A stretch of DNA of 32,588 bases from a virus. A program made the position numbers and the translations under genes. The notes beneath the pieces were generated by a model. That model was not told the DNA's origin. It was given only the letters and a program-made list of their open reading frames with translations, and did no database searches. Shown piece after piece: positions 1 through 32,588 of the stretch (its first letter is position 1; every line of letters starts with the position of its first letter). The stretch covers positions 1 to 32,588 of IMG/VR virus record IMGVR_UViG_3300021075_000002. One strand, written 5' to 3'.

Positions 1-127
1 GAACAAATGGGACATCAGGAAGCTCAGGTACAAGAGGAACATCAGGTTCAAGTGGAACAAATGGAACATCAGGTTCAAGTGGAACAAATGGAACATCAGG
101 TTCAAGTGGAACAAATGGAACATCAGG
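1..127. repeat. Exact terminal repeat of the contig (circular closure)
   Basis: Bases 1-127 are identical to bases 32462-32588. A 127-base overlap is the size expected when a k=127 de Bruijn assembler closes a circle, so the non-redundant genome is most likely 32,461 bp. The reading frame of the giant fibre gene continues across the join. The join falls inside collagen-like repeat DNA, so the exact repeat number around it could be wrong. However, the stretch includes a TRG triplet variant (near bases 30-37) that I do not find in the same nucleotide context elsewhere, which argues against a chance repeat-to-repeat join. Confidence 0.9.
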
Positions 128-467
128 AAGTTCAGGTTCAAGTGGTTTAAATGGAACAGCAGAAGCTGTAGAAGCATGGAATATGGTGTTTCCAAGTGAT
201 ACATACCAAATTCTTACAGGTGATACTTATGTAGCATGGACGGGATCAGGAACAAAAACTTTAACATTACCAGATGCTGTTGGATCTGGTAGAATGCATT
301 TTATTAAAAGAACGGGATCATCTGGAACACCTACAATTTCTCGTAAAGGAACAGATACAATCGATGGCAGCACCGCAGCTATCCAATTAAGTTCTAATTA
401 TGAAGTCTTATGGGTGATTGATGCGATCACTGGTAAATGGCACACCTTATCAACTGGTGCTCCATAA
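1..467 (+). CDS. C-terminal end of the giant tail-hub/collagen-like fibre (continues from 25447-32588)
   Basis: This is the 3' end of the gene that starts at 25447. After circular closure codons run 3, 6, 9 and so on, in the same frame as the upstream part, and end at TAA 465-467. The whole gene is 7482 nt and encodes 2493 aa. The segment begins with the last Gly-X-Y shaft (to about base 151), followed by a compact C-terminal domain of roughly 100 aa. Its pattern is a TLP motif, then an IK-R motif, a TI and IDG turn, and a final W-hydrophobic strand. This matches the small beta-rich tip domain common at the ends of phage tail fibres, which usually trimerises the shaft or binds the receptor. 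The methionine at 183 is internal and not a start. The fibre assignment is firm; the tip role is inferred. Confidence 0.85.
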   Translation, partial: TNGTSGSSGTRGTSGSSGTNGTSGSSGTNGTSGSSGTNGTSGSSGSSGLNGTAEAVEAWNMVFPSDTYQILTGDTYVAWTGSGTKTLTLPDAVGSGRMHFIKRTGSSGTPTISRKGTDTIDGSTAAIQLSSNYEVLWVIDAITGKWHTLSTGAP

Positions 468-1345: not shown

Positions 1346-3949
1346 ATGGCAACAACACAACAAACTATTCAGGTAGATTTTGTAGCGAATACTAAACCAG
1401 CATTGGGTTCTGTTAAAGATATGATGGCTGAAGTTAAGAAACTATACGGACAATTAGGTGCAGTAAACGTTCCACCTTTAGTTCAACAAGAAACATTAAC
1501 CAGAATTGCAAAATTAAAAGGTGAGATAGAAGATGCAAAGAAGTCTGTGTCTATGTTCGATCCAGGTGACACATTCGGAAACTTCGCAACAATGTTAGGT
1601 GTAGCCAATACTGCAATGGTTGGTGTGTCTGCATCATTAAAACTATTTGGTGCTGATGAAAAACAAATAAAAGAAATACAAGATAAACTTAATACAGCAA
1701 TACAAATTGGTGTAGTTCTTCAGCAATTAGCAGATACTCAGAGATTAAAAGGTATGGTTTTATATTATGCTGGTAAAGTTAAAGAGATTGCAATGAGAGG
1801 AATTGAACTTGGACAAATGGCACTACTTAATGTAGCAACAAAAGCACAAGTTGTAGCAACTGAATTAGAAGGTAAAGCCACATTAAGGTCAGCCATAGCA
1901 AAGAAAGCAGCGACCGTAGCACAATGGGCATGGAACGCAGCGATGACAGCCAACCCTATTGGACTTATCATAGTGGCAATAGCAGCATTAGCAGCAGCAG
2001 TATATGGATTAACAAAAATATTTGGTGACAACACAAAAGCAGTTGCTGCATCAGCAGAAAGTTATGATGCACTTTTAGTTGCAATGGATGATTGGGATGC
2101 CGCACAAAGAAAGGCATCTATTGAAGCAGCATTAATGGCTGGACAGATTACACAAGTTCAGGCAAAGCAAGCAAGAGCATATGAAGAAGCAATAGCAAAA
2201 AAGAAAAAAGCTGACGCAGATTACTTGAAAACAAGCAATGAAATAAATAAACAATTAATAGATGGTGCAATCACAAAAGGTACAGCATTAAATGCATTAA
2301 ATGAAGCTGCATTAAAACAAGATGCTGCTTACTTAGAAGCAAATTTAACAGCAACACAAGCAGCAGCGCAAGCAACAAAAGATGATGTTAAACAAACTGA
2401 AGATGCTAGACTTAAAGTTCTATCAATTAGAAATAAAAAACTTGGTGACTTAATAGCAGCAGAGAATCAAAGATATAAAATAGAAAAACAAGCATTAATA
2501 GATTCAGGTGCGAACCAAGATGCTATGGCTGCAGCATTGGCAATTCATAATGACAACTTAGAAAGATTAAGAGGTGAGAATGAAAAAAAGAAAAGAGATG
2601 CTGACCTTAGATTAATGCAAATTGGAGCAATTGGTATAGAGCAACAAAAAGCAATTGAGAATAAGAGATATGAGAATGAACAAATAGACATGAAAGATAG
2701 TGGTGCACTTGATAAAGAAAAAGAAGTGGCAAAGAAGCAACATGAGCAAAACTTAAAGAACATAGATGATGCAGCACTAAATTCTAAAATAGAAGCACAA
2801 TTAGCATTACAACAATTACAAGCACAAAGTTACAATGAACTCGTTTCATATGAAGAGAATAGACATGCTGTGGAAATGAAAAGATTAGAAGATACGAAGG
2901 CAACTCAAGAACAAATTGAATTGGCTGAAGCACAACATAATAAGAATCTATCAGACCTTAATGCGCAAAGAGTTATGGTTGCTGCAGAAAAAGTTAATAC
3001 TGAGTTAGATAAAATGAAAGAAAAGATTGATAAAGAACCTATTGACCTATTCAACATAAGTGATATAGACACTAATGCAGACTTAATGATTTCTAAAACA
3101 AAATCTGCATATGCTAAACTTATTGAACAAGCAGGAACTGATTCTAAACTTAGAGAACAATTAGAAAAGAACTTAGCAATAAGATTGGGTGATATTAATC
3201 AGTGGAGAGTAGATAAGGAACTTGAGGCAGAGAAACTTAAAGAAGAAAAGATAAGCGAGCTAAGAGGTGCAGCAATAGAAGGATTTGGTACTATCATGAT
3301 GGATAGAATATCAGCCAGATATGATGAAGTTATAGGCACTATGAATAGTGACATAGAAGGAGGATTCGCAAAAGAACAAAAGGCATTAGATGAACTTAGA
3401 ACAAATAAGCAAATTAGTGATGAGCAATATAATGCTAAAAAGGCAAAATTAGATACTGAATATGAGAAAAAGAAAAAACAAGTTCAGATAGAAACTGCAA
3501 AGATTAGAAAAAGGGAGGCTATATGGCAAATTATAATAAATACTGCAGTAGCAGTTACAAAAGCATTAGCAGATAGTAACCCTCTTGTAGCAGGAGTTGT
3601 AGCAGGATTAGGAGCAATACAACTTGGTGTGGTTCAATTAAAACCATTACCAGAATATGGACAAGGAGGTTTATTAATAGGACCATCACACGCTGCAGGT
3701 GGTATAACAACACCAGTTGGAGTCGTTGAAGGAGGTGAATTTGTAATAAACAAAAAACAAACTACACAGAATCAGGGACTATTGGAAAGCATAAATAATT
3801 CTAATGGTGATATGATAAAAGAACTATCAAATAGATTAGATATATTAATTAATCTTAATTCAAGACCAACAAGAGCATATGTAACAGAAACTGATATAAC
3901 AAATACTCAGGACAATGTTAGAAAAATAAAAGAATATGCGACAATATAA
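1346..3949 (+). CDS. Tail tape measure protein
   Basis: This 867-aa protein sets tail length by spanning the lumen of the growing tail and enters or contacts the host membrane on injection. The N-terminal 200 residues are Ala-rich and helical. A hydrophobic segment (about residues 202-227, starting ANPIGLIIVAIAALAAA) fits the transmembrane stretch usual in this family. Residues 230-680 are a long charged coiled coil rich in Ala, Glu, Lys and Gln. A second hydrophobic stretch lies at about 725-760. The C-terminal GGLLIGPSHAAGG region, with GGEFVINKKQT, is the typical end of tape measures. At about 0.15 nm per residue the tail would be about 130 nm, suggesting a long non-contractile tail, since no sheath gene is seen. 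It is unusual that this gene lies downstream of the hub/fibre genes. Confidence 0.93.
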   Translation: MATTQQTIQVDFVANTKPALGSVKDMMAEVKKLYGQLGAVNVPPLVQQETLTRIAKLKGEIEDAKKSVSMFDPGDTFGNFATMLGVANTAMVGVSASLKLFGADEKQIKEIQDKLNTAIQIGVVLQQLADTQRLKGMVLYYAGKVKEIAMRGIELGQMALLNVATKAQVVATELEGKATLRSAIAKKAATVAQWAWNAAMTANPIGLIIVAIAALAAAVYGLTKIFGDNTKAVAASAESYDALLVAMDDWDAAQRKASIEAALMAGQITQVQAKQARAYEEAIAKKKKADADYLKTSNEINKQLIDGAITKGTALNALNEAALKQDAAYLEANLTATQAAAQATKDDVKQTEDARLKVLSIRNKKLGDLIAAENQRYKIEKQALIDSGANQDAMAAALAIHNDNLERLRGENEKKKRDADLRLMQIGAIGIEQQKAIENKRYENEQIDMKDSGALDKEKEVAKKQHEQNLKNIDDAALNSKIEAQLALQQLQAQSYNELVSYEENRHAVEMKRLEDTKATQEQIELAEAQHNKNLSDLNAQRVMVAAEKVNTELDKMKEKIDKEPIDLFNISDIDTNADLMISKTKSAYAKLIEQAGTDSKLREQLEKNLAIRLGDINQWRVDKELEAEKLKEEKISELRGAAIEGFGTIMMDRISARYDEVIGTMNSDIEGGFAKEQKALDELRTNKQISDEQYNAKKAKLDTEYEKKKKQVQIETAKIRKREAIWQIIINTAVAVTKALADSNPLVAGVVAGLGAIQLGVVQLKPLPEYGQGGLLIGPSHAAGGITTPVGVVEGGEFVINKKQTTQNQGLLESINNSNGDMIKELSNRLDILINLNSRPTRAYVTETDITNTQDNVRKIKEYATI

Positions 3950-6643: not shown

Positions 6644-6657
6644 CAATATAAAGATTA

Positions 6658-6687
6658 GAACTTCTTGCCAACATTGGCAAGAGGTTC
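6658..6687 (+). promoter_or_regulatory. Strong 13-bp hairpin between capsid and tail-tube genes
   Basis: GAACTTCTTGCCA and TGGCAAGAGGTTC form a 13-bp stem (one G-U wobble) around the loop ACAT, starting 15 bases after the capsid stop. The following TATCTTA is not a proper U-run. It is therefore more likely an mRNA-end stabiliser, processing site or partial terminator that sets the capsid:tail-protein ratio than a full terminator. Its position also argues against the TTG codon at 6665 as a start. Confidence 0.75.
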
Positions 6688-6712
6688 TATCTTAAAAAAC
6701 AACAATGAAATT

Positions 6713-7273: not shown

Positions 7274-7292
7274 AAGAATCAAAAAATAAATT

Positions 7293-7329
7293 AAAAGGCC
7301 AGTCAGGCAAAAACTGGCTGGCCTTTTTT
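7293..7329 (+). terminator. Rho-independent terminator after tail tube gene
   Basis: GGCCAGTCAG and CTGGCTGGCC pair as a 10-bp GC-rich stem (one G-U) with the loop GCAAAAA. It is preceded by AAAA and followed by TTTTTT. This is the clearest intrinsic terminator in the window and closes the transcript carrying tape measure, capsid and tail tube genes. The flanking A-run also lets it act weakly in the other direction. Confidence 0.93.
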
Positions 7330-7347
7330 ATTAAAAAAAAGTTAATA

Positions 7348-7779: not shown

Positions 7780-7793
7780 AAAAAATATAAAAA

Positions 7794-8927
7794 ATGAAAT
7801 CAGCACAACTTAATTTTAAAGAAATAGTATATCCAGAACTTTGTCCTAAATTGGTTAATTTCAAGGATTGGCATTACTATCTAACAGATAAAGATGAGCA
7901 ATGGACAAAAGAACTACAAAAACTATACTATGAAAGTTCAGTTCACGCAGCAATTCTTAATAATTTAAACCAAATGGTCTTTGGTACTGGCTTCTTAACT
8001 TTAACTCCATTAGATGAACTCATTCTTAAGTCATTAAAATATGATGAGATATTAAGAAAGTGTATATTTGATTTTGATTTATATGGACAATCATATTTAT
8101 ATATCAAATGGAACGATGAACATACAAAAATAGTTGAAATCAAACATATTAAATATGAACAGATAAAAATAGGAGACATTAATGTTGAGATGGATGAAGT
8201 TGATATATACTTTCACTGCACCAATTGGGACAAAAATAAATATAAAAATAGAGTTATAACACCACTTATTAAATTTAATGTAGACCCAAATTCAGATCCT
8301 CAACAAATATATCCATTAAAATATAATGATATGATGGTATATTCAACTCCATACTATAATGCTGGTTTGAGAAATATACAAGAATCAATTGAGATTGATA
8401 AATGGTACTTACATTTAGCAGAAACTGGATTTGGTGCAAATAAAATGTTCTTAATACCAGGTTCTATGGAAGAAAGAGAAAAAGATGAATTAGAATGGGT
8501 TCTTAAAAACAACTATTCTGGTGCTGAAGGCTTTAAGAATATAGTTTTATATCCAGAAGATCCTAACTTTAAACCAGAAATTATAGCAATAAACAACGAA
8601 GATATATCAAGTAAGTATGGTACAAGAGAAGAACAATTAAGACAGAATATAATTTCTGCACATCAACTACCATCACCATTATTAATCGGTGAAAAAACTG
8701 CAGGACAACTTGGAGCTGGTGAAGAATTCAAAACAGCATATGTGATATATAAACATAGAATGGTTTATCCAACAAGAAAAAGAATGACAGATATGTTTGA
8801 GGATATAAACGCATTCTTAATTAATCCACTATCACAAATTAGAATAGATGATATAGAGTTTGAGTTCTCAGAAAAACCTATTGCTCAACAATTCGAACTT
8901 ACACCAGTAAAAAATAATGTAAAATAA
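7794..8927 (+). CDS. Portal protein
   Basis: This 377-aa protein forms the dodecameric ring at the capsid vertex through which DNA is packaged and ejected. The N-terminal SSVHAAILNNLNQMVFGTGF (about residues 49-68), the wing region with FDLYGQSYLYIKW, the clip/stem region QESIEIDKWYLHLAETGFGANKM, and the crown helices with EEQLRQNIISAHQLPSPLLIG and GAGEEFKTAYVIYKHRMVYP are all characteristic of the PBSX/SPP1-like portal group. It is somewhat short for the family. The stop overlaps the next start (TAATG). Placing the portal downstream of the capsid and tube genes, far from the terminase, is unusual. Confidence 0.88.
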   Translation: MKSAQLNFKEIVYPELCPKLVNFKDWHYYLTDKDEQWTKELQKLYYESSVHAAILNNLNQMVFGTGFLTLTPLDELILKSLKYDEILRKCIFDFDLYGQSYLYIKWNDEHTKIVEIKHIKYEQIKIGDINVEMDEVDIYFHCTNWDKNKYKNRVITPLIKFNVDPNSDPQQIYPLKYNDMMVYSTPYYNAGLRNIQESIEIDKWYLHLAETGFGANKMFLIPGSMEEREKDELEWVLKNNYSGAEGFKNIVLYPEDPNFKPEIIAINNEDISSKYGTREEQLRQNIISAHQLPSPLLIGEKTAGQLGAGEEFKTAYVIYKHRMVYPTRKRMTDMFEDINAFLINPLSQIRIDDIEFEFSEKPIAQQFELTPVKNNVK

Positions 8928-10435: not shown

Positions 10436-11296
10436 ATGGGCTTCGGGTTTGATTTGGAATCTTTGTCTCTGTACACAAAATACGGTGCATCAGGAACAAC
10501 AAAAGGTGAGACAACATCTATAACAGCAACACCTCATACGGTCACCTTTGATGAGGCTGCACAAACACAACAGATTACCGTTGTTAATCAAAATGGTACA
10601 ACATTAACTGATTACTTAACATTCACTTCAAGTAACACTAAAACAACCGTGAGTGCAACAGGTTTAATAACATCAGTAACATCTGGAACAAGCACTATAA
10701 CCATCACTTATTCAGAACCAGATGATACACCACTAACTGATACTATTGGTATAACTACAACGGTAACAGAATCAGTAACAATTAATGGAAACTCATCACC
10801 ATATAGTTTACATGAAACAGAATATGTATCATTAACCGTGGAAAACCAAGTAGCAAAAGAATTAACATATGAATGTAAATATTATAGTTCAGATACAAAT
10901 GTTGCTATATTCGAACTAATAGACAATCCAACCGTCAGATTTTTAACTGCTGGAACAACTACATTAAGTGCAGTACACGATATTACTAACATAACTGGAA
11001 CAACGATATTAACATTAACAAATGAATTAATCACCTCATTAGTACAAATTGCTAATGATGGTCCAGGGCCTGTTGTTATGACAGCAACAGGAGAAACATT
11101 CCAGTGTATTATTCAAGATCAAGAAGGACATGATGTAACTTCCATAGTAGAATATACAAGTGATGATGCTTCATTCAGTGTTAATGCAACTGGTTTGATT
11201 ACTGGTGTATCATTAGGTACAGCAACCATAACTATATCAAAAACATACCCATTAAACACAATTACTACTACGGTTGATTGTAGTTATACAGCATAA
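10436..11296 (+). CDS. Ig-like (BIg2-type) virion surface protein with capsid-like N-terminus
   Basis: This 286-aa protein has at least two bacterial Ig-like domains. The first (about residues 25-115) contains FTSSNTKTTVSATGLITSVTSGTSTITITY and the last (about 200-286) contains TSDDASFSVNATGLITGVSLGTATITIS. Both show the A-x-GLIT-x-V-x-x-GTATITI signature of BIg2 domains, which on phage heads and tails bind surface glycans. The middle segment is probably a divergent third domain. The N-terminus (GFDLESLSLYTK, residues 4-15) resembles residues 5-16 of the major capsid protein (8 of 12 identical). The gene closes the portal-membrane protein operon before a terminator. A capsid or tail decoration role is inferred. 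Confidence 0.72.
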   Translation: MGFGFDLESLSLYTKYGASGTTKGETTSITATPHTVTFDEAAQTQQITVVNQNGTTLTDYLTFTSSNTKTTVSATGLITSVTSGTSTITITYSEPDDTPLTDTIGITTTVTESVTINGNSSPYSLHETEYVSLTVENQVAKELTYECKYYSSDTNVAIFELIDNPTVRFLTAGTTTLSAVHDITNITGTTILTLTNELITSLVQIANDGPGPVVMTATGETFQCIIQDQEGHDVTSIVEYTSDDASFSVNATGLITGVSLGTATITISKTYPLNTITTTVDCSYTA

Positions 11297-18458: not shown

Positions 18459-19166
18459 AATTTTAGGTTACAATACACAAAAGATGACAGTGGGTAAAGC
18501 CAATAAGTTAGTTGAGGCAGAACTTAATTTAGAATATAAAGAGAAGCAGGTGAAGAGATTTACGATAGAAGGTAGAACTTTTAATTGTCTATATGATATT
18601 AATGATTTACAAATACAAGAGTATGCATATTATAAAAGTTTAATAGGTGATATATATTCTAATCAGGTTGATAGTGAGGACAACGAGATAGAGGTTGATG
18701 AATCTATAAAATATAAAAAACTATTTACACAGGCACATAAAATAATTGCAATATTCACAAAAGAGAAGACTCTACTTAAGAAACACTTGGACTTTAGTGA
18801 CAAATGTGAATTGTTTAGCAACATGAATATACAAATGTTAATCAATATACTTTTTTTTTATTTAAATGTGATAGGGAATTTAACGACCAATGGGTCGATA
18901 TATTATATACAAACGATGGAGAAGTTACAAATGTAAACCATAGAGCAGAACAAATAAGATCCAGATATAATTGGTACTTATTAATACATACTCTATCTAA
19001 AGATAGTGTTGAAAAATATGACAGAATTAAAAAGAAAAAGATGATAAATATAATGGCATACTTAGACATTCTAGAAAAGAAAAGAAGAGTCGAGAAGGTA
19101 GAAGAGTATGCTAAAAAACAAGAGAGTTGGAAAAAAGCCTTCGGACAAAAAAAACCTGATAAATAA
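18400..19166 (+). CDS. Tail-assembly-chaperone-like protein made through a -1 frameshift at T9
   Basis: The 178-codon zero-frame product ends at TGA/TAA 18934-18936, but a second frame opens at a T9 run (18851-18859) and continues to TAA 19164-19166. Its stop overlaps the next start as TAATG, the signature junction of this genome. Slipping -1 on TTT TTT gives 255 aa: 153 upstream residues plus 102 from the -1 frame, starting LFKCDREFNDQWVD and ending KKAFGQKKPDK. The N-terminal FTIEGRTFNCLYDINDLQIQEY resembles tail assembly chaperones of Bacteroidota phages, where two forms made by frameshift are typical. It lies at the head of the tail-fibre operon. A one-base error or a real T-count variation are the alternatives. 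The start overlaps the upstream gene by 59 bases; an in-frame ATG at 18484 is possible. Confidence 0.62.
18850..18859 (+). promoter_or_regulatory. Candidate -1 ribosomal slippery site (T9)
   Basis: In the zero frame the codons are CTT TTT TTT TAT, so the heptamer T TTT TTT has exactly the phase of a canonical U-UUU-UUU -1 slip site. The -1 frame opens here and stays open for 102 codons to a coupled stop. No strong downstream stem was identified, which weakens the case for programmed slippage but does not exclude it. Confidence 0.55.
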
Positions 19167-22100
19167 TGTACTCACAAATAATTAGTATATTAAAGTCTAC
19201 AATCTTATCACAATTAGTTATAAAAGATACTGCATTTGGTGATATTGACGATTACGTAGAACATAATAAGAAGTTTCCATTCGCATTCATAGAAGCAAAT
19301 GGTATACAATGGTCTCAACATTGGATTCAATATGGATTTAAGATCCACTTATTGGATCAATTAAGAAAGAATAAGAACAATAAAACCACTATTTATAATG
19401 AAATGGATGCGGTTGCGCAGAAGTTTATTATAGATTTACACAATTTAGGTATGGTTAATAACTGGTTTATTGACTTTAATACACTACAAGGAGACTTAAC
19501 ATCCTTCGCACAAGATGAAGAATGTGCAGGTTTGGTTCTACAATTCACAATTCAAGTTGCAATTGACAATACTGGTGCCTGTATACCAACACTTATTACA
19601 GGCTCAACTATAACATACAACTATGGTACAAGTGGAACAAATGGAACAAGTGGAAGTTCAGGAACATCAGGCTCAAGTGGAACAAGTGGCTCATCTGGAA
19701 CATCAGGCACAAGTTCGACAAATGGAACAAGTGGAACAAATGGAACAAGTGGAACAAATGGATCATCAGGCACAAATGGAACATCTGGATCATCCGGTAC
19801 AAGTGCGACAAATGGAACAAGTGGAACTTCAGGTAGTTCAGGCTCAAGTGGAACTAATGGAACATCAGGTTCAAGTGGTTCATCTGGTACAAGTGGAACT
19901 AATGGAACAAGTGGAACATCAGGAAGTTCAGGAACTAATGGAACAAGTGGAACATCAGGAAGTTCAGGAATAGATGGTGCAACAGGAACAGATGGAACAT
20001 CAGGAAGTTCAGGAACTAATGGAACAAGTGGAACATCAGGAAGTTCAGGAATAGATGGTGCAACAGGAACAGATGGAACATCAGGAACAGATGGAACATC
20101 AGGAACAGATGGAACATCAGGAAGTTCAGGAACAAATGGAACATCAGGAAGTTCAGGAATAGATGGTGCAACAGGAACAGATGGAACATCAGGAAGTTCA
20201 GGAATAGATGGTGCAACAGGAACAGATGGAACATCAGGATCATCAGGAATTGATGGTAAAGATGGTACAGCATTCGGAACATCAGGAACAAATGGAACAT
20301 CAGGAAGTTCAGGAATAGATGGTGCAACAGGAACAGATGGAACATCAGGAAGTTCAGGAATAGATGGTGCAACAGGAACAGATGGAACATCTGGATCATC
20401 AGGAATTGATGGTAAAGATGGTACAGCATTCGGAACATCAGGAACAGATGGAACATCAGGATCATCAGGAACAGATGGAACATCAGGAACAGATGGAACA
20501 TCAGGAACAGATGGAACATCAGGAAGTTCAGGTACAAATGGAACATCTGGATCATCAGGAACAAATGGAACATCTGGATCATCAGGAACAAATGGAACAT
20601 CAGGTTCAAGTGGAACCAATGGAACTTCTGGAACTAATGGAACATCAGGTTCAAGTGGAACCAATGGAACTTCTGGAACTAATGGAACATCAGGTTCTTC
20701 AGGAACTAATGGAACATCAGGTAGTTCTGGAATTAATGGAACATCAGGTACAAACGGTTCATCAGGAATAAATGGTTTATATGGAGGTTCAGCAAGAAAA
20801 TGGTTAGGTTTTAGTTCTGATCGAACGGATCCATTCCCTGGTTATATAGGTAATTTGGCAATTGATTTCCCTACCTTTGATATAATGATAAGTACAATAG
20901 ATGCTGACAATGGTAACGTTAAAGATTTTTTATTGAGTTATAATGTAGGTGATATTATTAAAATAGAAAAATATGATGATCCATCTTGTTTTATTATAGC
21001 TCCAATAGATTATAGGTCATTGGAATTTCCAAGTATTTACGAAAGTGTACAATTGGGTGGTGAAATTTTATCTTCAGGTGGAACATTTATTACTGATGTT
21101 CCATTTCCTCCACTTGAACCTGGTGAGTATATTTTATCATTCTCAAAAAGAGGAACAAATGGAACATCAGGTACAAATGGAACATCAGGTAGTTCAGGAA
21201 CACGTGGAACCTCAGGTTCAAGTGGAGCAAATGGAACATCAGGTAGTTCAGGTACACGTGGAACATCAGGTAGTTCAGGTACAAATGGAACATCAGGATC
21301 TTCTGGTATAAGTTTTGATCCACAAATAGCGATAGATACAAAAGAACCAACAGGATTTTTAGATCCAGATTTAATAAGTGTAAGTTACAATTATACAGAT
21401 AGAACAATAACTCTAAGTTCAAGTACATCAATACAATACTATTGGAGAGGAACAAAGTACACATTAAGTAACCCTTGGATATCAACAGGACATACAAATA
21501 CTTTAGGTAACTGGTTCTTAAGTTCAACTGATGGTGTCAATTTTAATTGGGCTCAGACAACTTGGTTGTTCTCAGATATTCAAGTTTCATATGTTAGATA
21601 TAAAGCAACAGAGGAGACATCACTAGCAATTAAAGAGACTCACGGTTTAATGCAATGGGAAGTTCATGAAGAAATGCATCAAGCAATAGGAACATATCTT
21701 CATAGTGGTGGAAAACTAACAGCTGGCTCTTATTTAGAGAATACAGCAACAGATGCTGCAAATAGTCCAGCATTCGATGCTGCTGTTATAGCAGATGAGG
21801 ACTTAGACGTAAATGTTGCAGCTTGGTCTGAGGGAACTTACACAAGAATGTATGTTTCAGGATCAACATCAATATATGATTTAGCAGGTATATTACCATA
21901 TTCAGCAACTACAAATACTTATATAAAAGTTAATACACCTTTAACAGGAGTTTTTGTAGCAGGTGTTAATAACAGATATTATAATATATATCAAATATTA
22001 GTACCTACTACTACTGATACTACCTCATCAAAATATAGAATGATCATGTTGCAACCTCAAGCAACATTTACAACATTAGCAGCAGCACAAGCAGAAGATA

Positions 22101-23167
22101 CAAGAGGATTAAGGTTCGGTGACCTATCATCAGATGCAACTGAATTTGTTATATACTCAAGAATAACATATCTAACAACTGGCGCAGCAAATAATGGTAG
22201 GTGTGTGATTGCAACAAATGGCATAACATATGTAGTTGGGAATAAAACCGGTCTAATTTCAGTTGCAGGTGTGAGCAGTACTAATCACGCAACATTAAGT
22301 AATCTACCATGGATAGATAGTGGACATATTGGAGATATAAACTCATTAGCAGGATTTGATGGTGCAGGAAATGCTACATATGTTGCATTAGTAAATGGAA
22401 CTTCAGGTAGTTCAGGAACTAATGGAACATCTGGATCATCAGGAACCAATGGAACATCAGGAAGTTCAGGAACAAATGGAACATCAGGAAGTTCAGGAAC
22501 AAATGGAACATCAGGAAGTTCAGGAACAAATGGAACATCAGGAACAAATGGAACATCAGGTAGTTCAGGAACAAATGGAACATCAGGTAGTTCAGGTACA
22601 AATGGAACATCAGGTAGTTCAGGTACAAATGGAACATCAGGTAGTTCAGGAACAAATGGAACATCAGGTAGTTCAGGAACAAATGGAACATCAGGTTCAT
22701 CAGGTAGTTCAGGCACAAATGGTACTTCTGGTTCATCAGGAAGTTCAGGTACAAATGGAACATCAGGTACAAATGGAACATCAGGTACAAATGGAACATC
22801 AGGTACAAATGGTACATCAGGATCAAGTGGTATAAATGGAGAAACAAACTTAATAGAACAAATAGATTTTAACCTATATGTTGCAGGTTTAACAGGAACA
22901 TCCATATTAGTAAGTGATTACGCTTGGTATGCATATACAATATCTGCAATATCATATAAAACAAATTCAGGTTCATGCTCAATAGATATTAGAAATAATT
23001 CTATAAGCGTAACAGGTATGACCACTATAACAGGTACAACTACTAACAATATATATTATGCAACAGCAGGAAATGCGGTAGCAATTGGAAATAATGTAGA
23101 TGTTAAGATAAATACACTTACAAATTGTACTGAGATATATGGCTCTATAAAAACTATAAGAACTTAA
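19166..23167 (+). CDS. 1333-aa collagen-like tail fibre with tail-terminator-like head
   Basis: Domain order: residues 1-150 are a globular domain resembling small tail-terminator/completion proteins (HNKKFPFAFIEANG, and YGFKIHLLDQL before NEMDAVAQKF). Residues about 154-537 are a proline-free Gly-X-Y shaft of GTS, GSS, GTN and GTD triplets. Residues 538-662 are a beta-rich globular insert. A short shaft (about 663-715) follows. Residues about 716-1077 are a receptor-type domain with the His cluster HGLMQWEVHEEMH (H826, H834, H838; H846 nearby). A third shaft is at about 1078-1225, and a C-terminal beta domain spans 1226-1333. The head could anchor the protein to the tail while the shafts project it, ending in binding domains. 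The start overlaps the upstream gene by TAATG. The shaft DNA is recombinogenic, so its length may vary. Confidence 0.78.
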   Translation: MYSQIISILKSTILSQLVIKDTAFGDIDDYVEHNKKFPFAFIEANGIQWSQHWIQYGFKIHLLDQLRKNKNNKTTIYNEMDAVAQKFIIDLHNLGMVNNWFIDFNTLQGDLTSFAQDEECAGLVLQFTIQVAIDNTGACIPTLITGSTITYNYGTSGTNGTSGSSGTSGSSGTSGSSGTSGTSSTNGTSGTNGTSGTNGSSGTNGTSGSSGTSATNGTSGTSGSSGSSGTNGTSGSSGSSGTSGTNGTSGTSGSSGTNGTSGTSGSSGIDGATGTDGTSGSSGTNGTSGTSGSSGIDGATGTDGTSGTDGTSGTDGTSGSSGTNGTSGSSGIDGATGTDGTSGSSGIDGATGTDGTSGSSGIDGKDGTAFGTSGTNGTSGSSGIDGATGTDGTSGSSGIDGATGTDGTSGSSGIDGKDGTAFGTSGTDGTSGSSGTDGTSGTDGTSGTDGTSGSSGTNGTSGSSGTNGTSGSSGTNGTSGSSGTNGTSGTNGTSGSSGTNGTSGTNGTSGSSGTNGTSGSSGINGTSGTNGSSGINGLYGGSARKWLGFSSDRTDPFPGYIGNLAIDFPTFDIMISTIDADNGNVKDFLLSYNVGDIIKIEKYDDPSCFIIAPIDYRSLEFPSIYESVQLGGEILSSGGTFITDVPFPPLEPGEYILSFSKRGTNGTSGTNGTSGSSGTRGTSGSSGANGTSGSSGTRGTSGSSGTNGTSGSSGISFDPQIAIDTKEPTGFLDPDLISVSYNYTDRTITLSSSTSIQYYWRGTKYTLSNPWISTGHTNTLGNWFLSSTDGVNFNWAQTTWLFSDIQVSYVRYKATEETSLAIKETHGLMQWEVHEEMHQAIGTYLHSGGKLTAGSYLENTATDAANSPAFDAAVIADEDLDVNVAAWSEGTYTRMYVSGSTSIYDLAGILPYSATTNTYIKVNTPLTGVFVAGVNNRYYNIYQILVPTTTDTTSSKYRMIMLQPQATFTTLAAAQAEDTRGLRFGDLSSDATEFVIYSRITYLTTGAANNGRCVIATNGITYVVGNKTGLISVAGVSSTNHATLSNLPWIDSGHIGDINSLAGFDGAGNATYVALVNGTSGSSGTNGTSGSSGTNGTSGSSGTNGTSGSSGTNGTSGSSGTNGTSGTNGTSGSSGTNGTSGSSGTNGTSGSSGTNGTSGSSGTNGTSGSSGTNGTSGSSGSSGTNGTSGSSGSSGTNGTSGTNGTSGTNGTSGTNGTSGSSGINGETNLIEQIDFNLYVAGLTGTSILVSDYAWYAYTISAISYKTNSGSCSIDIRNNSISVTGMTTITGTTTNNIYYATAGNAVAIGNNVDVKINTLTNCTEIYGSIKTIRT
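19625..20776 (+). repeat. Collagen-like shaft repeat, first block of 19166 gene
   Basis: Uninterrupted 9-base (Gly-X-Y) coding units with X and Y mostly Thr, Ser, Asn or Asp, in GTSGSSGTNGTSG order. Within it a 156-base (52-residue) higher-order unit is duplicated: GIDGKDGTAFG occurs at about 20246 and 20402. The FGT step in GTAFGTSG breaks the Gly-X-Y phase by one residue in both copies. Confidence 0.92.
21154..21309 (+). repeat. Collagen-like shaft repeat, second block
   Basis: A short block of the same triplets with RGT and GAN variants, linking two globular domains of the fibre. The unusual TRG triplets also occur at the contig ends. Confidence 0.9.
22397..22838 (+). repeat. Collagen-like shaft repeat, third block
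   Basis: About 147 residues of GTNGTSGSSG units, highly uniform at the DNA level (long near-identical runs of ACAAATGGAACATCAGGTAG), placing the C-terminal domain at a distance from the receptor-type domain. Confidence 0.9.
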
Positions 23168-24299: not shown

Positions 24300-25454
24300 A
24301 TGGCAATAACATTAGTAACAAAACCAGACTATTATATAAGAGCATATGACACAAATACTGCATATTATAAGATAAGTTCTACAAAAACAACAGAACTAAA
24401 CTTTAGATTTGTGCTAAAATTATATGGTCCAACAAATAATTACTTAGCAACGATAAAATTAACTTCAGATAGTTCAGGATATGGATATTACAATCCAACA
24501 TCTTATATCAATTCTTTTTTAACAAGTAACGTGAATATCAACTCTAACATTTTAACAGATTGTACAAGCTCTTATGGCTTATATACACTACAATTTGGAG
24601 AAGAATATGGTGATCCGATAGTTACATACTCAGGTTTAACCTCAGATGTTAGGTTTTATTATAATGGTTGTCAAATATTCGAAGACTATGATACACTTTA
24701 TAACAATAATTATTGGGTTGCTAAAACAGGAATAACAACAGGACATTTCTTAACTCCAACAAATAAATTCTACTTAGACTTAAGAGAAAAGATGTGGCTA
24801 TATTGGATTAACTCTAATCTTAGTGGCGATACATATTTCGTGTTTAGATTCTACTATCAAGGAACCAATACAGATGTAACGGTATATACTTATCAATCAA
24901 ATATAGATAAGATGTATAGTGTTGGTGTAGGTCCAGCAAATTTAGTTAGTGGTTCAACACCAACAAATTGGGATTACTATACAATAGATATAGAAGAGCC
25001 ATCAAGCAGTCCAAGTATATCAGGTTACACTATATATAATACTTACAAATGTAACTATAATGACTTTACAAGTGTATATTGGCTGAATGAACATGGAGGT
25101 TGGTCCAATTTCTTATTCAATAAGAAGAAATATAATGAATATAAAGTTACAAGAAATACATATGAGAAATTCTTAAACTATGGATATACTAATCAACAAA
25201 GAGGATTAACACAATTTAGAACAGATGTAGAACAAACAATTTCTCTAAATACTGATTGGCTAAACGACTATCAAAACTTACTTATAAAAAGTTTATTCAT
25301 GTCACCAGATGTTAGAATATATGAGAATGGTACTTTAATTCCATATATGGTTGTAGACACAGAATACAATGAGAGAAGCACAACATATGATGGAAAATAT
25401 CAATATCAAGTTAAACTAACACCAGCAAATAAAAAAGTAATACAATATGGCTAA
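24300..25454 (+). CDS. Distal tail (Dit-like) protein
   Basis: This 384-aa, beta-rich, Tyr- and Asn-rich protein lies directly upstream of the hub/fibre gene, the position of Dit proteins, which form the ring at the tail tip and hold the hub and fibres. The middle region has TSVYWLNEHGGWSNFLFNKKK (about residues 258-278), then an arginine-rich stretch and NTDWLNDYQNLLIKSLFMSPDVRIYEN. The W-x-N-x-x-G-G-x-x-x-x-x-F motif is characteristic of tail-tip proteins of Bacteroidota phages. The gene ends 8 bases into the next gene. Role assigned from position and motif. Confidence 0.63.
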   Translation: MAITLVTKPDYYIRAYDTNTAYYKISSTKTTELNFRFVLKLYGPTNNYLATIKLTSDSSGYGYYNPTSYINSFLTSNVNINSNILTDCTSSYGLYTLQFGEEYGDPIVTYSGLTSDVRFYYNGCQIFEDYDTLYNNNYWVAKTGITTGHFLTPTNKFYLDLREKMWLYWINSNLSGDTYFVFRFYYQGTNTDVTVYTYQSNIDKMYSVGVGPANLVSGSTPTNWDYYTIDIEEPSSSPSISGYTIYNTYKCNYNDFTSVYWLNEHGGWSNFLFNKKKYNEYKVTRNTYEKFLNYGYTNQQRGLTQFRTDVEQTISLNTDWLNDYQNLLIKSLFMSPDVRIYENGTLIPYMVVDTEYNERSTTYDGKYQYQVKLTPANKKVIQYG

Positions 25455-28400
25455 TAGAACCGAAATAAGACTAAAAGATTACAAAAAGATATTTCCAGAG
25501 AATAACAATTTCACAAAAGGAACAGACTACTGGAGTGCAGGTACAGGCTGGAGTGCATTTACAACATCTTTTAACACTAATATATTACAACATGCAACAG
25601 GAAACACTGCAGCACTATCACAATCAGGTATAGAAGGCTTAGTTGCAGGTAAAAAATATAGAGTTGGACTATGGGTGATAGATCCATATCATATTACAGG
25701 TACGGTTACGGTTAATATAAACGGAACTAATATGCCTTCAGTCTTTACAAGCCAATTAAGAACATATGAAGCAATCATAACTAATGTTCCAGCAAGTGGC
25801 TCAACCATAACTATAACACCTTCAAGCAATAACAATTGGTGGTTGTATGGAGTTTATATTGAATGTATAGACCCAACATATACAAGTAACTTAGATTTAT
25901 ATGAGGATCAACAATTAAATTTAAATTTAAGTGTAACTGATATAAAAGATATATCAAAGAGAAACTCTAAATATTCGAAAACTATTAAGATTCCTGCCAC
26001 AAAGAACAACAATATTATATTTAATAACTTACAAGATGTAAATAGTGACACAAGTTACGGAGAAATATATCTTAATAAGAATGTACAAGCAGAGATATAT
26101 AGAAATTCAGTCTTAATAATGAGCGGATTTTTATATGTGGCTTCTATACAAAGAGATAGTGATACACCAATATCATATGAAGTCATATTCTTAAGTGAAA
26201 TAGCAAATTTATCAACAACTTTAGGAGACCAATACATATTTGGAAACTCAGATCCAACTTTAGATGTAGATGTAAGTGCATTATCTCATGTGTTTAGAAT
26301 AGAGAAGATTAAAGATGCATGGGAAAGTGGTGATACATTACACTATTACTATCCATTAATAGACTATGAAGGAAATGAAACATCAACAAACAAATTAGTT
26401 ATAAAATATCTTAAGCCAGCAATTTCAGTTAAGTACTTATGGGACAAGATATTTGAGGATGCTGACTTTACATATGATAGTACATTCTTAACATCAGAAC
26501 CATTTACAAAGTTAGTGATGCCATGGAGTGGTGATGTCATATTTAAAGATACTAATGCGCAAACTTATATGTGCGTTAAAAACACACCAACAGGACCATC
26601 TTATCCAGGTACAATAGGACCATTTCAGGATCAGATTAACTGGACTTGGATTAATGGTATATCTGGTAAAACAACTACATTAACATTTAACAATCCAATA
26701 TCATATGTGGTTTCTAATCCAACATCAAATATACATCTACCAACAGACAATAGTATATTTAACTCACCAGGTAATACTTGGGTTGATATAGATATAACAG
26801 GGCTATATAATATAAGATTCAAGAGCAATTTCTTATCATTTGCAACGGTAGGATATGCACCACAATATATTCTAAAGGTAGTGAGTACATTACACGGTGT
26901 GGTTCATACAATAACAAAGAATTCACAGATAAATGTGAACACTACACTTTCATTTGATTTTAGCATAAACTATTATGCAGAAGCAGGTGAGAAGATATAT
27001 ATTCAATTATGGACAAATGGTAAGACTACAAGATATGGAGACCAGACAGGAAATGGAACTGGTTCATTCTACGAAGGATTTAGAGTATATTCAGTCATGG
27101 ACCTCGGAGACTTTGGATTTGGTGGTCAAATAATGTGGGTTAATTTTAAGAATATGTTTGGTGGTGAAAAAGTTAAAAAGATGGATTTTATCACCAATAT
27201 AATTAAGATGTTCAACTTAGTAGTTGATGAAGATTTAGCAATAGCAAAGAGATTTAAGATAGAAACAAACAACACTTACTATCAAGGTGGTACATACAGA
27301 GATTGGACAAATAAAATAGACAATTCATCAGAAGATATTAAGAGATTACCAGAATTTATTAACAAAAATGTACTATTAGAGAACACAAAAGATAAAGATA
27401 CTTTTAATGAAGAGTATATTAAAGAATATTCTAAAACTTATGGTACAAAAAATGTCATAAATGAGGTAGGTGGATCAGGTGATATAAATATTACATCTAC
27501 ATTTGCATCAACTCCGATAGGTAGATTAGGAACTACTAACATACCTATCAGTAAAATGTATAGTATAGATAGAACTTCCACACCAGCGACCGTAACAAGA
27601 ACTGGATTCCTTCCAAGAATACTATATTACAACAATATACCTATGGATTCAGGTATGACTAATATAGTCATATGTACATTAACATCACCAAGCACTGATT
27701 TCGTTCAACTATGCTATAATTCAACATATTATCAATATCATCCATGGGCTGGGCACTTAAACAATCCATATGAAGATACATTAGATATAAACTTTGGTGA
27801 AGTTGAACGCATATTTCTACCATTTAGTGATGATTTAACATATAATAACCTATATTATAACTATTATGAGGACTATTTGGGTAGATTAATGGATCATGAT
27901 AGTAAGTTAGTTACATATAACATACTATTAAATGAAGTTGATATGGCAGAGTTTAGATTCTGCGACACAATTAGAATAAAAAATGCTTCATATGTAGTAA
28001 ACAATATAGAAGATTGGACACCAGGAGAATTCTGTAAAGTTGAACTTATAAAATTAGGTCAGAACTACTTAAAATTTAAACCAACACATATTAGAAGTTA
28101 CGTATATACAGCACCATATGCAAATATTAAATCTAATATAACATTAACAAAACCTAATGTAGAAATACCAATTATAGTTGATCCAAGTACAGGATTACCA
28201 TATAGTTACATATCAGATGAAGGTTGGTACGATAAACAATTAGACTATTCAGACTCTAATCAGGTTAATCCTACAAGTAATTCATTAGTTATAGGGATTA
28301 ACAATAAAGTTGATGATGCAACAAATACACAAATTATTGGTGATGAGAATATATTAATAACTGAACAACCAATAGACAATATATCAATTGTAGGAAATAG

Positions 28401-31400
28401 AAACTACATAGATAGTGGAGTGACAAATAAAGTACTATTTGCTGCAGATAAAAGCTTAACTTCAGGAGACACATATTACGTTTATGAAGATAGTGAGTTT
28501 GTTTATACTAAAAGTTCAACACAACAGATACAAGTAAGAACTGGAACCACATATGATGGAGAAGGCAACGTAACAAATTTCGTATTAACTGCTGTAAGTC
28601 CTGACGGATGGGGTGAGTGGAGAGATCCAAATCTATTTTGGACTGGTATAACATCAGGTACATCTGGCTCATCAGGAAGTTCAGGATCCAACGGAACATC
28701 TGGATCATCGGGCTCAAGTGGTACAAATGGAACATCAGGATCAAGTGGTAGTTCAGGAACAAATGGAACATCAGGTTCATCAGGTAGTTCAGGTACAAAT
28801 GGAACATCAGGTAGCTCAGGAACCAACGGAACATCAGGTTCATCAGGTAGTTCAGGAACAAATGGTACATCAGGCTCATCAGGAACTAATGGTACATCAG
28901 GCTCATCAGGAACATCAGGCTCATCAGGAACATCAGGCTCATCAGGAAGTTCAGGAACAAATGGTACATCAGGCTCATCAGGAAGTTCAGGAACAAATGG
29001 AACATCAGGAAGTTCAGGAACCAACGGAACATCAGGCTCATCAGGTAGTTCAGGAACAAATGGTACATCAGGCTCATCAGGAACATCAGGCTCATCAGGA
29101 ACATCAGGCTCATCAGGAAGTTCAGGAACAAATGGAACATCAGGCTCATCAGGAAGTTCTGGTTCAAGTGGTACAAATGGAACATCAGGCTCATCAGGAA
29201 GTTCAGGAACAAATGGAACATCAGGAAGTTCAGGAACCAACGGAACATCAGGCTCATCAGGAAGTTCAGGAACAAATGGAACATCAGGAAGTTCAGGAAC
29301 AAATGGAACATCAGGAAGTTCAGGAACAAATGGAACATCAGGAAGTTCAGGAACAAATGGAACATCAGGAATTTCAGGAACAAATGGAACATCAGGCTCA
29401 TCAGGAAGTTCAGGAACAAATGGAACATCAGGAAGTTCAGGAACAAATGGAACATCCGGAAGTTCAGGAACAAATGGAACATCAGGCTCATCAGGAAGTT
29501 CTGGTTCAAGTGGTACAAATGGAACATCAGGCTCAAGTGGTACAAATGGAACATCAGGCTCAAGTGGTACAAATGGAACATCAGGTAGCTCAGGTACAAA
29601 TGGAACATCTGGTTCAAGTGGTACAAATGGAACATCAGGTTCATCAGGAAGTTCAGGAACCAACGGGACATCAGGAAGCTCAGGTAGTTCAGGTACCAAC
29701 GGAACATCAGGTTCATCAGGTACCAACGGAACATCAGGTTCAAGTGGAACCAACGGAACATCAGGAAGTTCAGGAACCAACGGAACATCAGGTTCAAGTG
29801 GAACCAACGGAACATCAGGAAGTTCAGGAACAAATGGAACATCAGGTTCATCAGGTTCAAGTGGAACCAACGGAACATCAGGAAGTTCAGGAACCAACGG
29901 AACATCAGGTTCAAGTGGAACCAACGGAACATCAGGAAGTTCAGGAACAAATGGAACATCAGGTTCATCAGGTACCAACGGAACATCAGGAAGTTCAGGA
30001 ACAAATGGAGCATCAGGTTCATCAGGTAGTTCAGGAACAAATGGAACATCAGGTTCATCAGGTACAAATGGAACATCAGGTTCAAGTGGAACCAACGGAA
30101 CATCAGGTAGTTCAGGAACAAATGGAACATCAGGTTCATCAGGAAGTTCAGGAACAAATGGAACATCAGGTTCATCAGGAAGTTCAGGTACATCAGGTTC
30201 ATCAGGAAGTTCAGGTACTAATGGAACATCTGGCTCGAGTGGATCAAGTGGTACAGATGGAACATCAGGTTCATCAGGTAGTTCAGGAACAGATGGAACA
30301 AGTGGCTCAAGTGGAACATCAGGAAGTTCAGGTACTAACGGAACATCAGGTTCAAGTGGATTAAGTTCTGGACCATTCTACATTCAAGTTTCAGGTGGAA
30401 CATTTTATAGTGATCCACATACGGTTAATTCAGGAGATACAATTGTATTTGAGCCAGGTTGTAACATGGAAATAACAACAGGATTTACTCAAGGTAAGTT
30501 TGCTGTTAATATATCAAGTACTTTTAAGTGGCCTGTGTTTGCGGTATGTAACTTAGAACAATTCTTAGATGCATTTTATAAGATTGAAAATTGGACAACT
30601 TGCGTAGAAGGTGCAGATATTGTTGTATATTCAGACCCAGTATATTCAGATTTAATGCCAGGAACAGCAACAAGAGGATCTGTAACATTAGATGGAGACA
30701 CAGCACCACTACAACACAATAAAATAACGGTAAGAGGTGCAGGTGGTGCAATATACTTTAATCAATATCACATAAATGTGGTAGGTAACAATTGTATTTA
30801 TCGCGATATAACTTTTATTGGTCGTCTGAAGTTTTCAACTCCAACACTTACAGGTGCTACAACATTCCACATTGATGGAACAACAAATAAAAATATAATA
30901 TTCGACAATTGTGGATGGTCAAATATAGTTTCTTTATATTCGACAGGCTCAACAGAATATAAACCTCAAATTATAAAATCAGGATTGTTAGATGATGGTA
31001 GTGGACACGCCATTACATTTATAGGTAATAGTATAAGTAACTCTGACAACAATGATGGATATAGATATAATGGGAATTTCGGAGTACAACTTTCAGGTAC
31101 TTGCTATTCAATTTATCTAAAAGTCACAGATTTAAGTGGTGACCCTGCATCATATACATATATGGAAAGGGATGGTATAGAAAGTTGTAAGTTTCATTTG
31201 TATGGAGACCAACCACACTATGAATATTCGAATGCTGATGGATTTTTTGTGACTGATGGATCTGCAATTTTCTCATATGATCCAACATGGACCTCAACAA
31301 TAGGTGTTGCAGGACACAATCCAGTCATTTATAATAACCATATTGTTAAACATCCTTTTATTTTAGATAGACCAGAGGCAACACCAGCATCAAATGATTA

Positions 31401-32588
31401 CTTTATTTTTAGTGACACATCAAATGGTGGATATTTAAGAAAAGGTTTGATAAGCAATTTAAGTGGTGGAACTGGAGGTGGAACGAATGGTACATCAGGT
31501 AGTTCTGGAACATCAGGTAGTTCTGGAACATCAGGTAGTTCTGGAACATCAGGTAGTTCTGGAGTAAGCCCAACTGGATGTACTGATGTTAATTTTTATT
31601 ATAACACCACAACAGATGTTTTATATACACCAGGGTTAAACTTAACAGGATTAACATATTCAGGATTAACCAATTATTTAACAATTGGTCCAGATGGTAC
31701 GGTTTATTATACAACAGGCGCAACTGGAGGTGGAACAAATGGAACATCAGGTTCAAGTGGAACAAATGGAACATCAGGTAGTTCAGGTACAAATGGTACA
31801 TCAGGATCAAGCGGAACATCAGGAGCAGGTTTCAGTTGGTGTGGAGATTGGACTTATGGAGCTGATGCACCACATTACTGGGTATGGGTTTCAACTGATG
31901 GAACTCCACCATTATTATGGACAAGAGGATACACGGTTAGAATAAATAAAACTGATGCAAATGATGTAGATAGAAACTTACTATTAACATCACTACAGGC
32001 TCCATATTATATAACAATATCAGGATCATCAGGATATGTAAAATATTTAAATAGTTTAAACTTCTTAGACAATGGTGATAAAGTTGATTATTTTGTAGAA
32101 CCAGCAAATATAGTTGCTTCCGGCGGAACACCAGTACAATGGGGATCTTATACAATATGTTTCTCACCAACAGGATTATCAGGAACTAATGGAACCTCAG
32201 GTAGCTCAGGTACAAACGGAACATCAGGTAGCTCTGGAATAAGTCCGACTGGATGTACTGATGTTAATTTTTATTATAACACCACAACAGATGTTTTATA
32301 TACTCCAGGATTAAATTTAACAGGATTAACACAATCGGGTTTAACTAACTTTTTAGTGGTTGGTCCTAATGGTGATGTTTATTATACAACAGGTGGATCT
32401 GGAGGTGGAACAAATGGAACATCAGGTAGTTCAGGAACAAATGGAACATCAGGTAGTTCAGGAACAAATGGGACATCAGGAAGCTCAGGTACAAGAGGAA
32501 CATCAGGTTCAAGTGGAACAAATGGAACATCAGGTTCAAGTGGAACAAATGGAACATCAGGTTCAAGTGGAACAAATGGAACATCAGG
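25447..32588 (+). CDS. Giant tail-hub/collagen-like fibre fusion, 2493 aa (continues at base 1-467)
   Basis: Domain order: residues 1-150, a beta-sandwich with a carbohydrate-binding look (NNNFTKGTDYWSAGTG...NNNWWLYGVYIEC). Residues 151-1070, a tail-hub/Tal-like block of the Bacteroidota type (NLNLSVTDIKDISKRNSKYSKT, then LSTTLGDQYIFG and later DFITNIIKMFNLVVDED). Residues about 1071-1638, a proline-free Gly-X-Y shaft. Residues about 1639-2006, a right-handed-helix-like segment. Short shafts then alternate with two copies of a small domain (31564-31731 and 32242-32412), ending in a tip domain after base 151. The start ATG overlaps the Dit-like gene by 8 bases. Fusion of hub and fibre in one chain is unusual: one trimer would both plug the tail and reach for the host. 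Repeat count is the main uncertainty. Confidence 0.8.
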   Translation, partial: MANRTEIRLKDYKKIFPENNNFTKGTDYWSAGTGWSAFTTSFNTNILQHATGNTAALSQSGIEGLVAGKKYRVGLWVIDPYHITGTVTVNINGTNMPSVFTSQLRTYEAIITNVPASGSTITITPSSNNNWWLYGVYIECIDPTYTSNLDLYEDQQLNLNLSVTDIKDISKRNSKYSKTIKIPATKNNNIIFNNLQDVNSDTSYGEIYLNKNVQAEIYRNSVLIMSGFLYVASIQRDSDTPISYEVIFLSEIANLSTTLGDQYIFGNSDPTLDVDVSALSHVFRIEKIKDAWESGDTLHYYYPLIDYEGNETSTNKLVIKYLKPAISVKYLWDKIFEDADFTYDSTFLTSEPFTKLVMPWSGDVIFKDTNAQTYMCVKNTPTGPSYPGTIGPFQDQINWTWINGISGKTTTLTFNNPISYVVSNPTSNIHLPTDNSIFNSPGNTWVDIDITGLYNIRFKSNFLSFATVGYAPQYILKVVSTLHGVVHTITKNSQINVNTTLSFDFSINYYAEAGEKIYIQLWTNGKTTRYGDQTGNGTGSFYEGFRVYSVMDLGDFGFGGQIMWVNFKNMFGGEKVKKMDFITNIIKMFNLVVDEDLAIAKRFKIETNNTYYQGGTYRDWTNKIDNSSEDIKRLPEFINKNVLLENTKDKDTFNEEYIKEYSKTYGTKNVINEVGGSGDINITSTFASTPIGRLGTTNIPISKMYSIDRTSTPATVTRTGFLPRILYYNNIPMDSGMTNIVICTLTSPSTDFVQLCYNSTYYQYHPWAGHLNNPYEDTLDINFGEVERIFLPFSDDLTYNNLYYNYYEDYLGRLMDHDSKLVTYNILLNEVDMAEFRFCDTIRIKNASYVVNNIEDWTPGEFCKVELIKLGQNYLKFKPTHIRSYVYTAPYANIKSNITLTKPNVEIPIIVDPSTGLPYSYISDEGWYDKQLDYSDSNQVNPTSNSLVIGINNKVDDATNTQIIGDENILITEQPIDNISIVGNRNYIDSGVTNKVLFAADKSLTSGDTYYVYEDSEFVYTKSSTQQIQVRTGTTYDGEGNVTNFVLTAVSPDGWGEWRDPNLFWTGITSGTSGSSGSSGSNGTSGSSGSSGTNGTSGSSGSSGTNGTSGSSGSSGTNGTSGSSGTNGTSGSSGSSGTNGTSGSSGTNGTSGSSGTSGSSGTSGSSGSSGTNGTSGSSGSSGTNGTSGSSGTNGTSGSSGSSGTNGTSGSSGTSGSSGTSGSSGSSGTNGTSGSSGSSGSSGTNGTSGSSGSSGTNGTSGSSGTNGTSGSSGSSGTNGTSGSSGTNGTSGSSGTNGTSGSSGTNGTSGISGTNGTSGSSGSSGTNGTSGSSGTNGTSGSSGTNGTSGSSGSSGSSGTNGTSGSSGTNGTSGSSGTNGTSGSSGTNGTSGSSGTNGTSGSSGSSGTNGTSGSSGSSGTNGTSGSSGTNGTSGSSGTNGTSGSSGTNGTSGSSGTNGTSGSSGTNGTSGSSGSSGTNGTSGSSGTNGTSGSSGTNGTSGSSGTNGTSGSSGTNGTSGSSGTNGASGSSGSSGTNGTSGSSGTNGTSGSSGTNGTSGSSGTNGTSGSSGSSGTNGTSGSSGSSGTSGSSGSSGTNGTSGSSGSSGTDGTSGSSGSSGTDGTSGSSGTSGSSGTNGTSGSSGLSSGPFYIQVSGGTFYSDPHTVNSGDTIVFEPGCNMEITTGFTQGKFAVNISSTFKWPVFAVCNLEQFLDAFYKIENWTTCVEGADIVVYSDPVYSDLMPGTATRGSVTLDGDTAPLQHNKITVRGAGGAIYFNQYHINVVGNNCIYRDITFIGRLKFSTPTLTGATTFHIDGTTNKNIIFDNCGWSNIVSLYSTGSTEYKPQIIKSGLLDDGSGHAITFIGNSISNSDNNDGYRYNGNFGVQLSGTCYSIYLKVTDLSGDPASYTYMERDGIESCKFHLYGDQPHYEYSNADGFFVTDGSAIFSYDPTWTSTIGVAGHNPVIYNNHIVKHPFILDRPEATPASNDYFIFSDTSNGGYLRKGLISNLSGGTGGGTNGTSGSSGTSGSSGTSGSSGTSGSSGVSPTGCTDVNFYYNTTTDVLYTPGLNLTGLTYSGLTNYLTIGPDGTVYYTTGATGGGTNGTSGSSGTNGTSGSSGTNGTSGSSGTSGAGFSWCGDWTYGADAPHYWVWVSTDGTPPLLWTRGYTVRINKTDANDVDRNLLLTSLQAPYYITISGSSGYVKYLNSLNFLDNGDKVDYFVEPANIVASGGTPVQWGSYTICFSPTGLSGTNGTSGSSGTNGTSGSSGISPTGCTDVNFYYNTTTDVLYTPGLNLTGLTQSGLTNFLVVGPNGDVYYTTGGSGGGTNGTSGSSGTNGTSGSSGTNGTSGSSGTRGTSGSSGTNGTSGSSGTNGTSGSSGTNGTS
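28657..30360 (+). repeat. Long collagen-like shaft of the hub/fibre gene
   Basis: About 568 residues of nearly pure Gly-X-Y with X and Y almost only Thr, Ser and Asn (GTSGSSGTNGTSG). No proline or hydroxylysine-type motif is present. At 0.29 nm per residue a triple helix would be about 165 nm. Synonymous differences (ACAAATGG, ACCAACGG, AGTTCAGG, TCATCAGG) mark groups of repeats copied together. Assembly length may be compressed or expanded. Confidence 0.92.
31465..31563 (+). repeat. Short collagen-like linker, first
   Basis: Gly-X-Y triplets (GTGGGTNGTSGSSG...) lead from the preceding globular segment into the first copy of the duplicated small domain. Confidence 0.85.
31564..31731 (+). repeat. 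Duplicated fibre domain, copy 1 (copy 2 at 32242-32412)
   Basis: Both copies encode a segment starting SPTGCTDVNFYYNTTTDVLY and continuing GLNLTGLT...GLTN...GP-G-VYYTTG. DNA agreement is high over the first 90 bases and falls off at the 3' end. The copies are about 678 bases apart, each flanked by collagen-like linkers, so the unit of duplication was a domain plus its linker. Confidence 0.85.
31714..31830 (+). repeat. Short collagen-like linker, second
   Basis: Gly-X-Y triplets from the first duplicated domain to a globular domain beginning GFSWCGDWTYGADAPHYW, which is about 115 residues long and has aromatic strands. Confidence 0.85.
32179..32244 (+). repeat. Short collagen-like linker, third
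   Basis: Gly-X-Y triplets separating the Trp-rich globular domain from the second copy of the duplicated domain. Confidence 0.82.
32242..32412 (+). repeat. Duplicated fibre domain, copy 2
   Basis: Second copy of the domain described at 31564. Main differences lie in the last third, where LTIGPDGTVYY becomes LVVGPNGDVYY. Early codons are conserved also at third positions, showing recent duplication or gene conversion. Confidence 0.85.
32395..32588 (+). repeat. Collagen-like shaft that crosses the contig ends
   Basis: Gly-X-Y triplets from the second duplicated domain run to the window end and, after circular closure, on to about base 151 of the window. The last 127 bases are the redundant copy of bases 1-127. 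It leads to the C-terminal tip domain. Confidence 0.9.

Follow-up and report, generated by a model that had tools for sequence, protein, structure and literature searches.

The window, by which we mean the whole stretch of DNA analysed, is an entire virus record of 32588 bp, and the features of the hub-fibre chain described below, together with the tape measure and the 384-aa upstream gene, all lie on its plus strand. An open reading frame begins at position 25447, stays open for 2380 aa and runs off the end of the window at 32588. Bases 1-127 are identical to bases 32462-32588, giving an exact 127-bp terminal repeat, and when the ends are joined through it (codons 25447..32461 followed by 1..467), a single frame with a single stop encodes 2493 aa. 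The initial annotation had placed a chain of 2493 aa at 25447-32588; the reading frame is real, but the window itself holds only 2380 aa of it, the full length requires the joined ends, and those coordinates leave out the C-terminal module at about 162-467. Its description of one reading frame carrying both a tail hub and a multi-domain Gly-X-Y fibre holds, with the frame unbroken from the hub through a solenoid-like segment and a long Gly-X-Y tract into the distal modules.

An end overlap of exactly 127 bases is what a circular path would show if the record had been assembled at k = 127. Every 126-mer is found only once in the circularised record. Exact internal repeats reach at most 125 bp, just short of the end overlap, which means that any longer ones could have been collapsed. 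The length of the Gly-X-Y tract is only as reliable as the assembly, and both fibre length and closure hinge on assembly within the repeat. Because the ends close inside a repeat that codes for Gly-X-Y sequence, closure needs outside support, which comes from gene order: joining the ends places a 165-aa gene, a 90-aa gene and a tape measure gene (1346..3949; phrog_25337, E 5.8e-8) 3' of the hub-fibre gene, which parallels the order of hub, 88-aa gene and tape measure in Elizabethkingia phage TCUEAP1.

The N-terminal part of the chain belongs, by homology of its core, to a known phage protein family: residues 145-285 match the profile of phrog_38559 (function unknown) with E 2.8e-17, and tblastn found weak relatives in the Nonlabens phages P12024S/L and in TCUEAP1. 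A search of viral contigs with the single hub protein returned no relatives, and an alignment was needed as query; with the Nonlabens and Elizabethkingia phage proteins aligned, viral contigs yielded 216 relatives; the best 80 of these were retained, as were 79 loci from a second search started from the Nonlabens side. A profile built from 62 relatives aligns to residues 58-869 (E 2.6e-86), ending no more than two positions from the profile end. No hub was found by sequence search of the PDB.

When residues 1-1068 were folded together, the structure lists were dominated by jelly-roll matches and residues 874-1068 were left unmodelled, so the core was folded alone, as a single chain of residues 149-875 with the 62 relatives in AlphaFold2 (mean pLDDT 67; core blocks 80-93). 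In structure comparison of this model with VIA-align, all 14 of the best rows were tail or injection hubs (Z 10.5-12.8; 220-299 residues aligned, spanning model positions 1-727), led by Milano (8fqc, 12.8), 7-7-1 (9rku, 12.8) and cyanophage A-1(L) (8kea, 12.3) and including PlPVC1, Mu, Neisseria 3d37, phiCD508, VgrG1, MuSo2, monocin, pyocin R2, Anabaena CIS and VgrS, so that phage tails, R-type pyocins, contractile injection systems and VgrG are all represented. Foldseek by itself gave the tail tips of T1 and lambda as the two best matches of the hub core. Counting against the assignment, the whole-hub structural matches have an rmsd of 4-6 Å at about 10% identity. Taken with the relatives' profile, the model makes it well supported that residues 149-870 (25891..28056) fold as a tail-hub core of the gp27/VgrG type that ends near residue 870, and once the ends are joined this core also occupies the expected position relative to the tape measure and tail genes. 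The earlier reading of about 1000 N-terminal residues as a tail hub thus stands for 149-870 but not for the boundary at 1000-1070; residues 871-1070 lie outside the hub, in a linker. The phage is probably siphovirus-like with a Bacteroidota host, the sole basis for the host being that the two named phage relatives infect Flavobacteriia.

Two jelly-roll domains decorate the modelled hub. Residues 12-145 (25480..25881) resemble a carbohydrate-binding module, with a CBM22-type structure as a match (2w5f, Z 12.4) and further structural likeness to CBM35 and CBM16; the domain is placed between the first hub strand and the remainder of the hub, where relatives have from 12 to about 250 aa ahead of the hub core. 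A TNF/C1q-like jelly roll is predicted to be inserted in the hub at residues 367-555 (26545..27111), with the model partly of low confidence. A jelly-roll fold alone is no proof that either domain binds sugar.

Genes adjoining the hub in the window are syntenic with those of its relatives. The upstream gene (24300..25454, 384 aa) is a homologue of a 455-495 aa gene located directly 5' of the hub in relatives (E 3.3e-10), and a Dit-type role is suggested for it by position only. Relatives in which the hub gene is complete have it as a separate gene, which encodes about 650-1217 aa and no Gly-X-Y tract. Among the related contigs, a collagen-like reading frame was found only in L012 (identical to L093) and L119, in each case as a gene separate from the hub; the L012 contig stops inside its own hub gene, so the hub tail there is not seen. 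In a sister subgroup the hubs bear tails of 255-574 aa in which Thr-rich linkers are combined with repeats of small domains, a second, different and independent long extension. The hub genes of this subgroup at L113 735-3410, L117 9274-12375, L121 9953-13324 and L125 9971-13624 end in long Thr-rich linkers, with runs of T, between which lie small repeated domains that contain Cys; this part reaches 574 aa after the hub. Contigs from genome collections yielded only two hub genes, L094 and L095, in metagenome-assembled genomes labelled Euryarchaeota and Pseudooceanicola; these are probably phage contigs in the wrong bins, and no host assignment is drawn from them because of those labels.

Between the hub and the tract, residues 871-1070 form a linker outside the hub that holds a short beta-solenoid-like repeat (residues 945-1046; 28279..28584), which has a weak LbR_Ice_bind match and resembles a separate gene lying 3' of the hub in relatives. 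In the main subgroup of relatives, this following gene encodes about 284 aa with repeats of the NxxIxGxxN type (56 copies collected), and its profile scores 18-19 bits against residues 945-1046, the best of 2000 shuffles reaching 8.7. The match is weak, covers only 102 residues, and falls below threshold on the full-length chain, presumably owing to biased composition; it could also reflect a generic likeness between solenoids. Because the gene directly after the hub in one subgroup encodes a solenoid like that of the linker, the simplest account of the sequences, and a likely one, is that the hub gene fused with the adjacent fibre gene and that the Gly-X-Y tract was then inserted.

The tract itself (residues 1071-1640; 28657..30366) consists of 190 consecutive Gly-X-Y triplets, of the kinds GSS, GTS and GTN, in which Gly is missing from none, far beyond chance. 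Of its residues, 38% are Ser, 34% Gly, 19% Thr and 8% Asn; Pro is absent and charge nearly so, and the tract matches the Pfam Collagen family (PF01391) above cut-off. Codon changes within the tract are silent in 35% of cases, compared with 29% expected, which says little on selection. With four shorter tracts the whole chain has 729 Gly-X-Y residues, none of them proline, which means that a stable collagen helix may not form; at 0.286 nm per residue, and if the helix is straight and triple, the first tract would measure 163 nm and all tracts together 208 nm, which agrees, under that condition, with the proposal of a fibre longer than 150 nm.

Beyond the first tract, a non-repeat domain at residues 1641-2011 (371 aa; 30367..31479) has no database match and is followed by the first copy of a 54-aa module (residues 2042-2095; 31570..31731), a further non-repeat domain of 114 aa with no significant match (residues 2129-2242; 31831..32172) and the second copy of the module (residues 2267-2320; 32245..32406). 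The two copies are nearly identical, and a similar motif is seen in the 152-aa collagen-like gene of L012. A last Gly-X-Y tract (residues 2321-2392; 32407..32588) crosses the window end through the terminal repeat, and in the joined frame a C-terminal module of 101 aa plus the stop (residues 2393-2493; 162..467) completes the chain, with a weak match to phrog_31104. Neither the distal domains nor the C-terminal module found a firm match in database searches.

A second Gly-X-Y protein of 1333 aa is encoded at 19166-23167, where an N-terminal domain is joined to proline-free Gly-X-Y tracts. This N-terminal domain matches a 181-aa gene that precedes the hub in relatives (E 3.8e-5), and the same fusion of N-terminal domain and Gly-X-Y sequence occurs in L012 at 5128-7845; no hits came from a search that used the N-terminus of this 1333-aa protein as query. 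Judging from where its gene lies, the protein may serve in tail completion.

The combination of hub and collagen-like fibre has precedents. Tal proteins commonly bear long extensions, and in phages of Streptococcus thermophilus a single Tal chain holds a gp27-like hub together with carbohydrate-binding modules and collagen-like linkers, its length being predicted at 40-91 nm (PMC9437275); the Tals of lactococcal BK5-T and C41431 are similar (PMC9692632). The initial annotation's statement that hub and fibre are usually separate proteins is therefore overstated for phages at large, although it describes the rule within the present hub family. Like the Tals of DT1, STP1, SW13, 9851 and TP-778L, the protein studied here has an N-terminal gp27-like hub and collagen-like linkers, identified by sequence period, in the same chain as globular modules. 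The chain of the S. thermophilus Tals is trimeric, as is proposed for the protein studied here. These Tals differ in serving Gram-positive hosts and in having no detected sequence relation to our protein. Orf18 of DT1 has a single Gly-X-Y stretch of 21 aa with proline, in contrast to 570 uninterrupted proline-free residues, and as to carbohydrate-binding modules, a CBM-like fold is seen only in the hub, at 12-145, the distal domains having no database match. The phrog_38559 protein at the hub position of P12024S/L shares the homologous hub core but is 754 aa long, with a short C-terminal BACON-like extension and no Gly-X-Y tract. Lambda gpJ and the T1 tail-tip protein likewise unite a hub and a central fibre in a single chain, the likeness being one of fold only, and they lack a collagen-like part. 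The E. coli prophage side-tail-fibre proteins EPclA/B share a Gly-X-Y trimer between globular ends, but they are separate fibres without a hub, and their tracts contain Pro and are rich in charge (PMC3368898). The hub-plus-collagen design is thus already known from phages of dairy streptococci and our protein places it in a different hub family; its unusual features are the tract's length, the proline-free make-up of the tract and its isolated occurrence in the phrog_38559-type hub family.

We consider it probable that the gene encodes a tail-tip protein in which a trimeric hub of the gp27/Tal type continues unbroken into a long three-chain fibre. Were hub and fibre instead separate genes, with the single reading frame or its C-terminal part an artefact of assembly through repeats shared with the gene at 19166-23167, one would point to exact repeats of up to 97 bp common to the two, to a contig that ends within a tract with a 127-bp overlap when internal repeats do not exceed 125 bp, and to the separate, collagen-free hubs of relatives with a complete hub gene. 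Unique sequence, however, carries the hub into the solenoid and 200 aa onward before the tract begins, each 126-mer is unique within the circularised record, and closure restores the order from hub to tape measure, all of which leave this explanation quite improbable. Cleavage of the chain after synthesis, which would leave hub and fibre as separate pieces in the virion, appears to us highly improbable: the hub boundary at 870 does coincide with the end of the gene in relatives, and examples of processed phage fibre proteins are known, but neither a protease nor an auto-cleavage domain was recognised near the hub-fibre junction, and a cut at the hub would free the fibre from its only evident anchor.

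The physical nature of the tract is less settled. Other viral collagen-like domains retain Pro in the X position and carry many charged residues (PMC3368898), and since this tract has no Pro and hardly any charge, a triple helix can only be assumed. Its Ser-, Gly-, Thr- and Asn-rich composition would also suit a flexible or polyglycine-II-like stalk, far shorter than 160 nm and distinct from a collagen helix; with a perfect Gly period over 190 triplets and a Pfam Collagen match above cut-off standing against it, we regard such a stalk as rather unlikely, while acknowledging that the helix is deduced from the period of a proline-free sequence.

If the continuous hub-fibre protein is accepted, the trimeric hub would shut the distal end of the tail tube with the jelly rolls on its flanks, and the three chains might together make a single triple-helical stalk aligned with the axis of the tail. 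Binding to the host surface may fall to the distal modules, and a pull on the fibre or contact through it could help to open the hub. Such a protein would have arisen when the hub gene fused with the fibre gene that comes next in relatives, the Gly-X-Y cassette being gained later. These results assign the structure of a tail hub to the members of a large phage protein family whose function is listed as unknown, and they present the hub C-terminus as a recurrent attachment point for unrelated long extensions that reach toward the host, namely collagen-like, Thr-rich-linker and BACON-like ones. Should the fibre attain the length implied by the sequence, it would offer a good case in which to ask how distant contact is relayed to the hub. 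A more speculative reading, which we think unlikely, is that the same proline-free Gly-X-Y cassette has been placed on two structural proteins, the hub and the 1333-aa protein whose N-terminus matches a gene that lies a few positions ahead of the relatives' hub, and that the tract is possibly a non-classical rod that sets a distance well above 150 nm from host to gate. Elsewhere in the window, 3' of the portal and head genes, the gene at 10436-11296 encodes 286 aa that contain Ig-like Big_2 repeats (E 2.8e-9).
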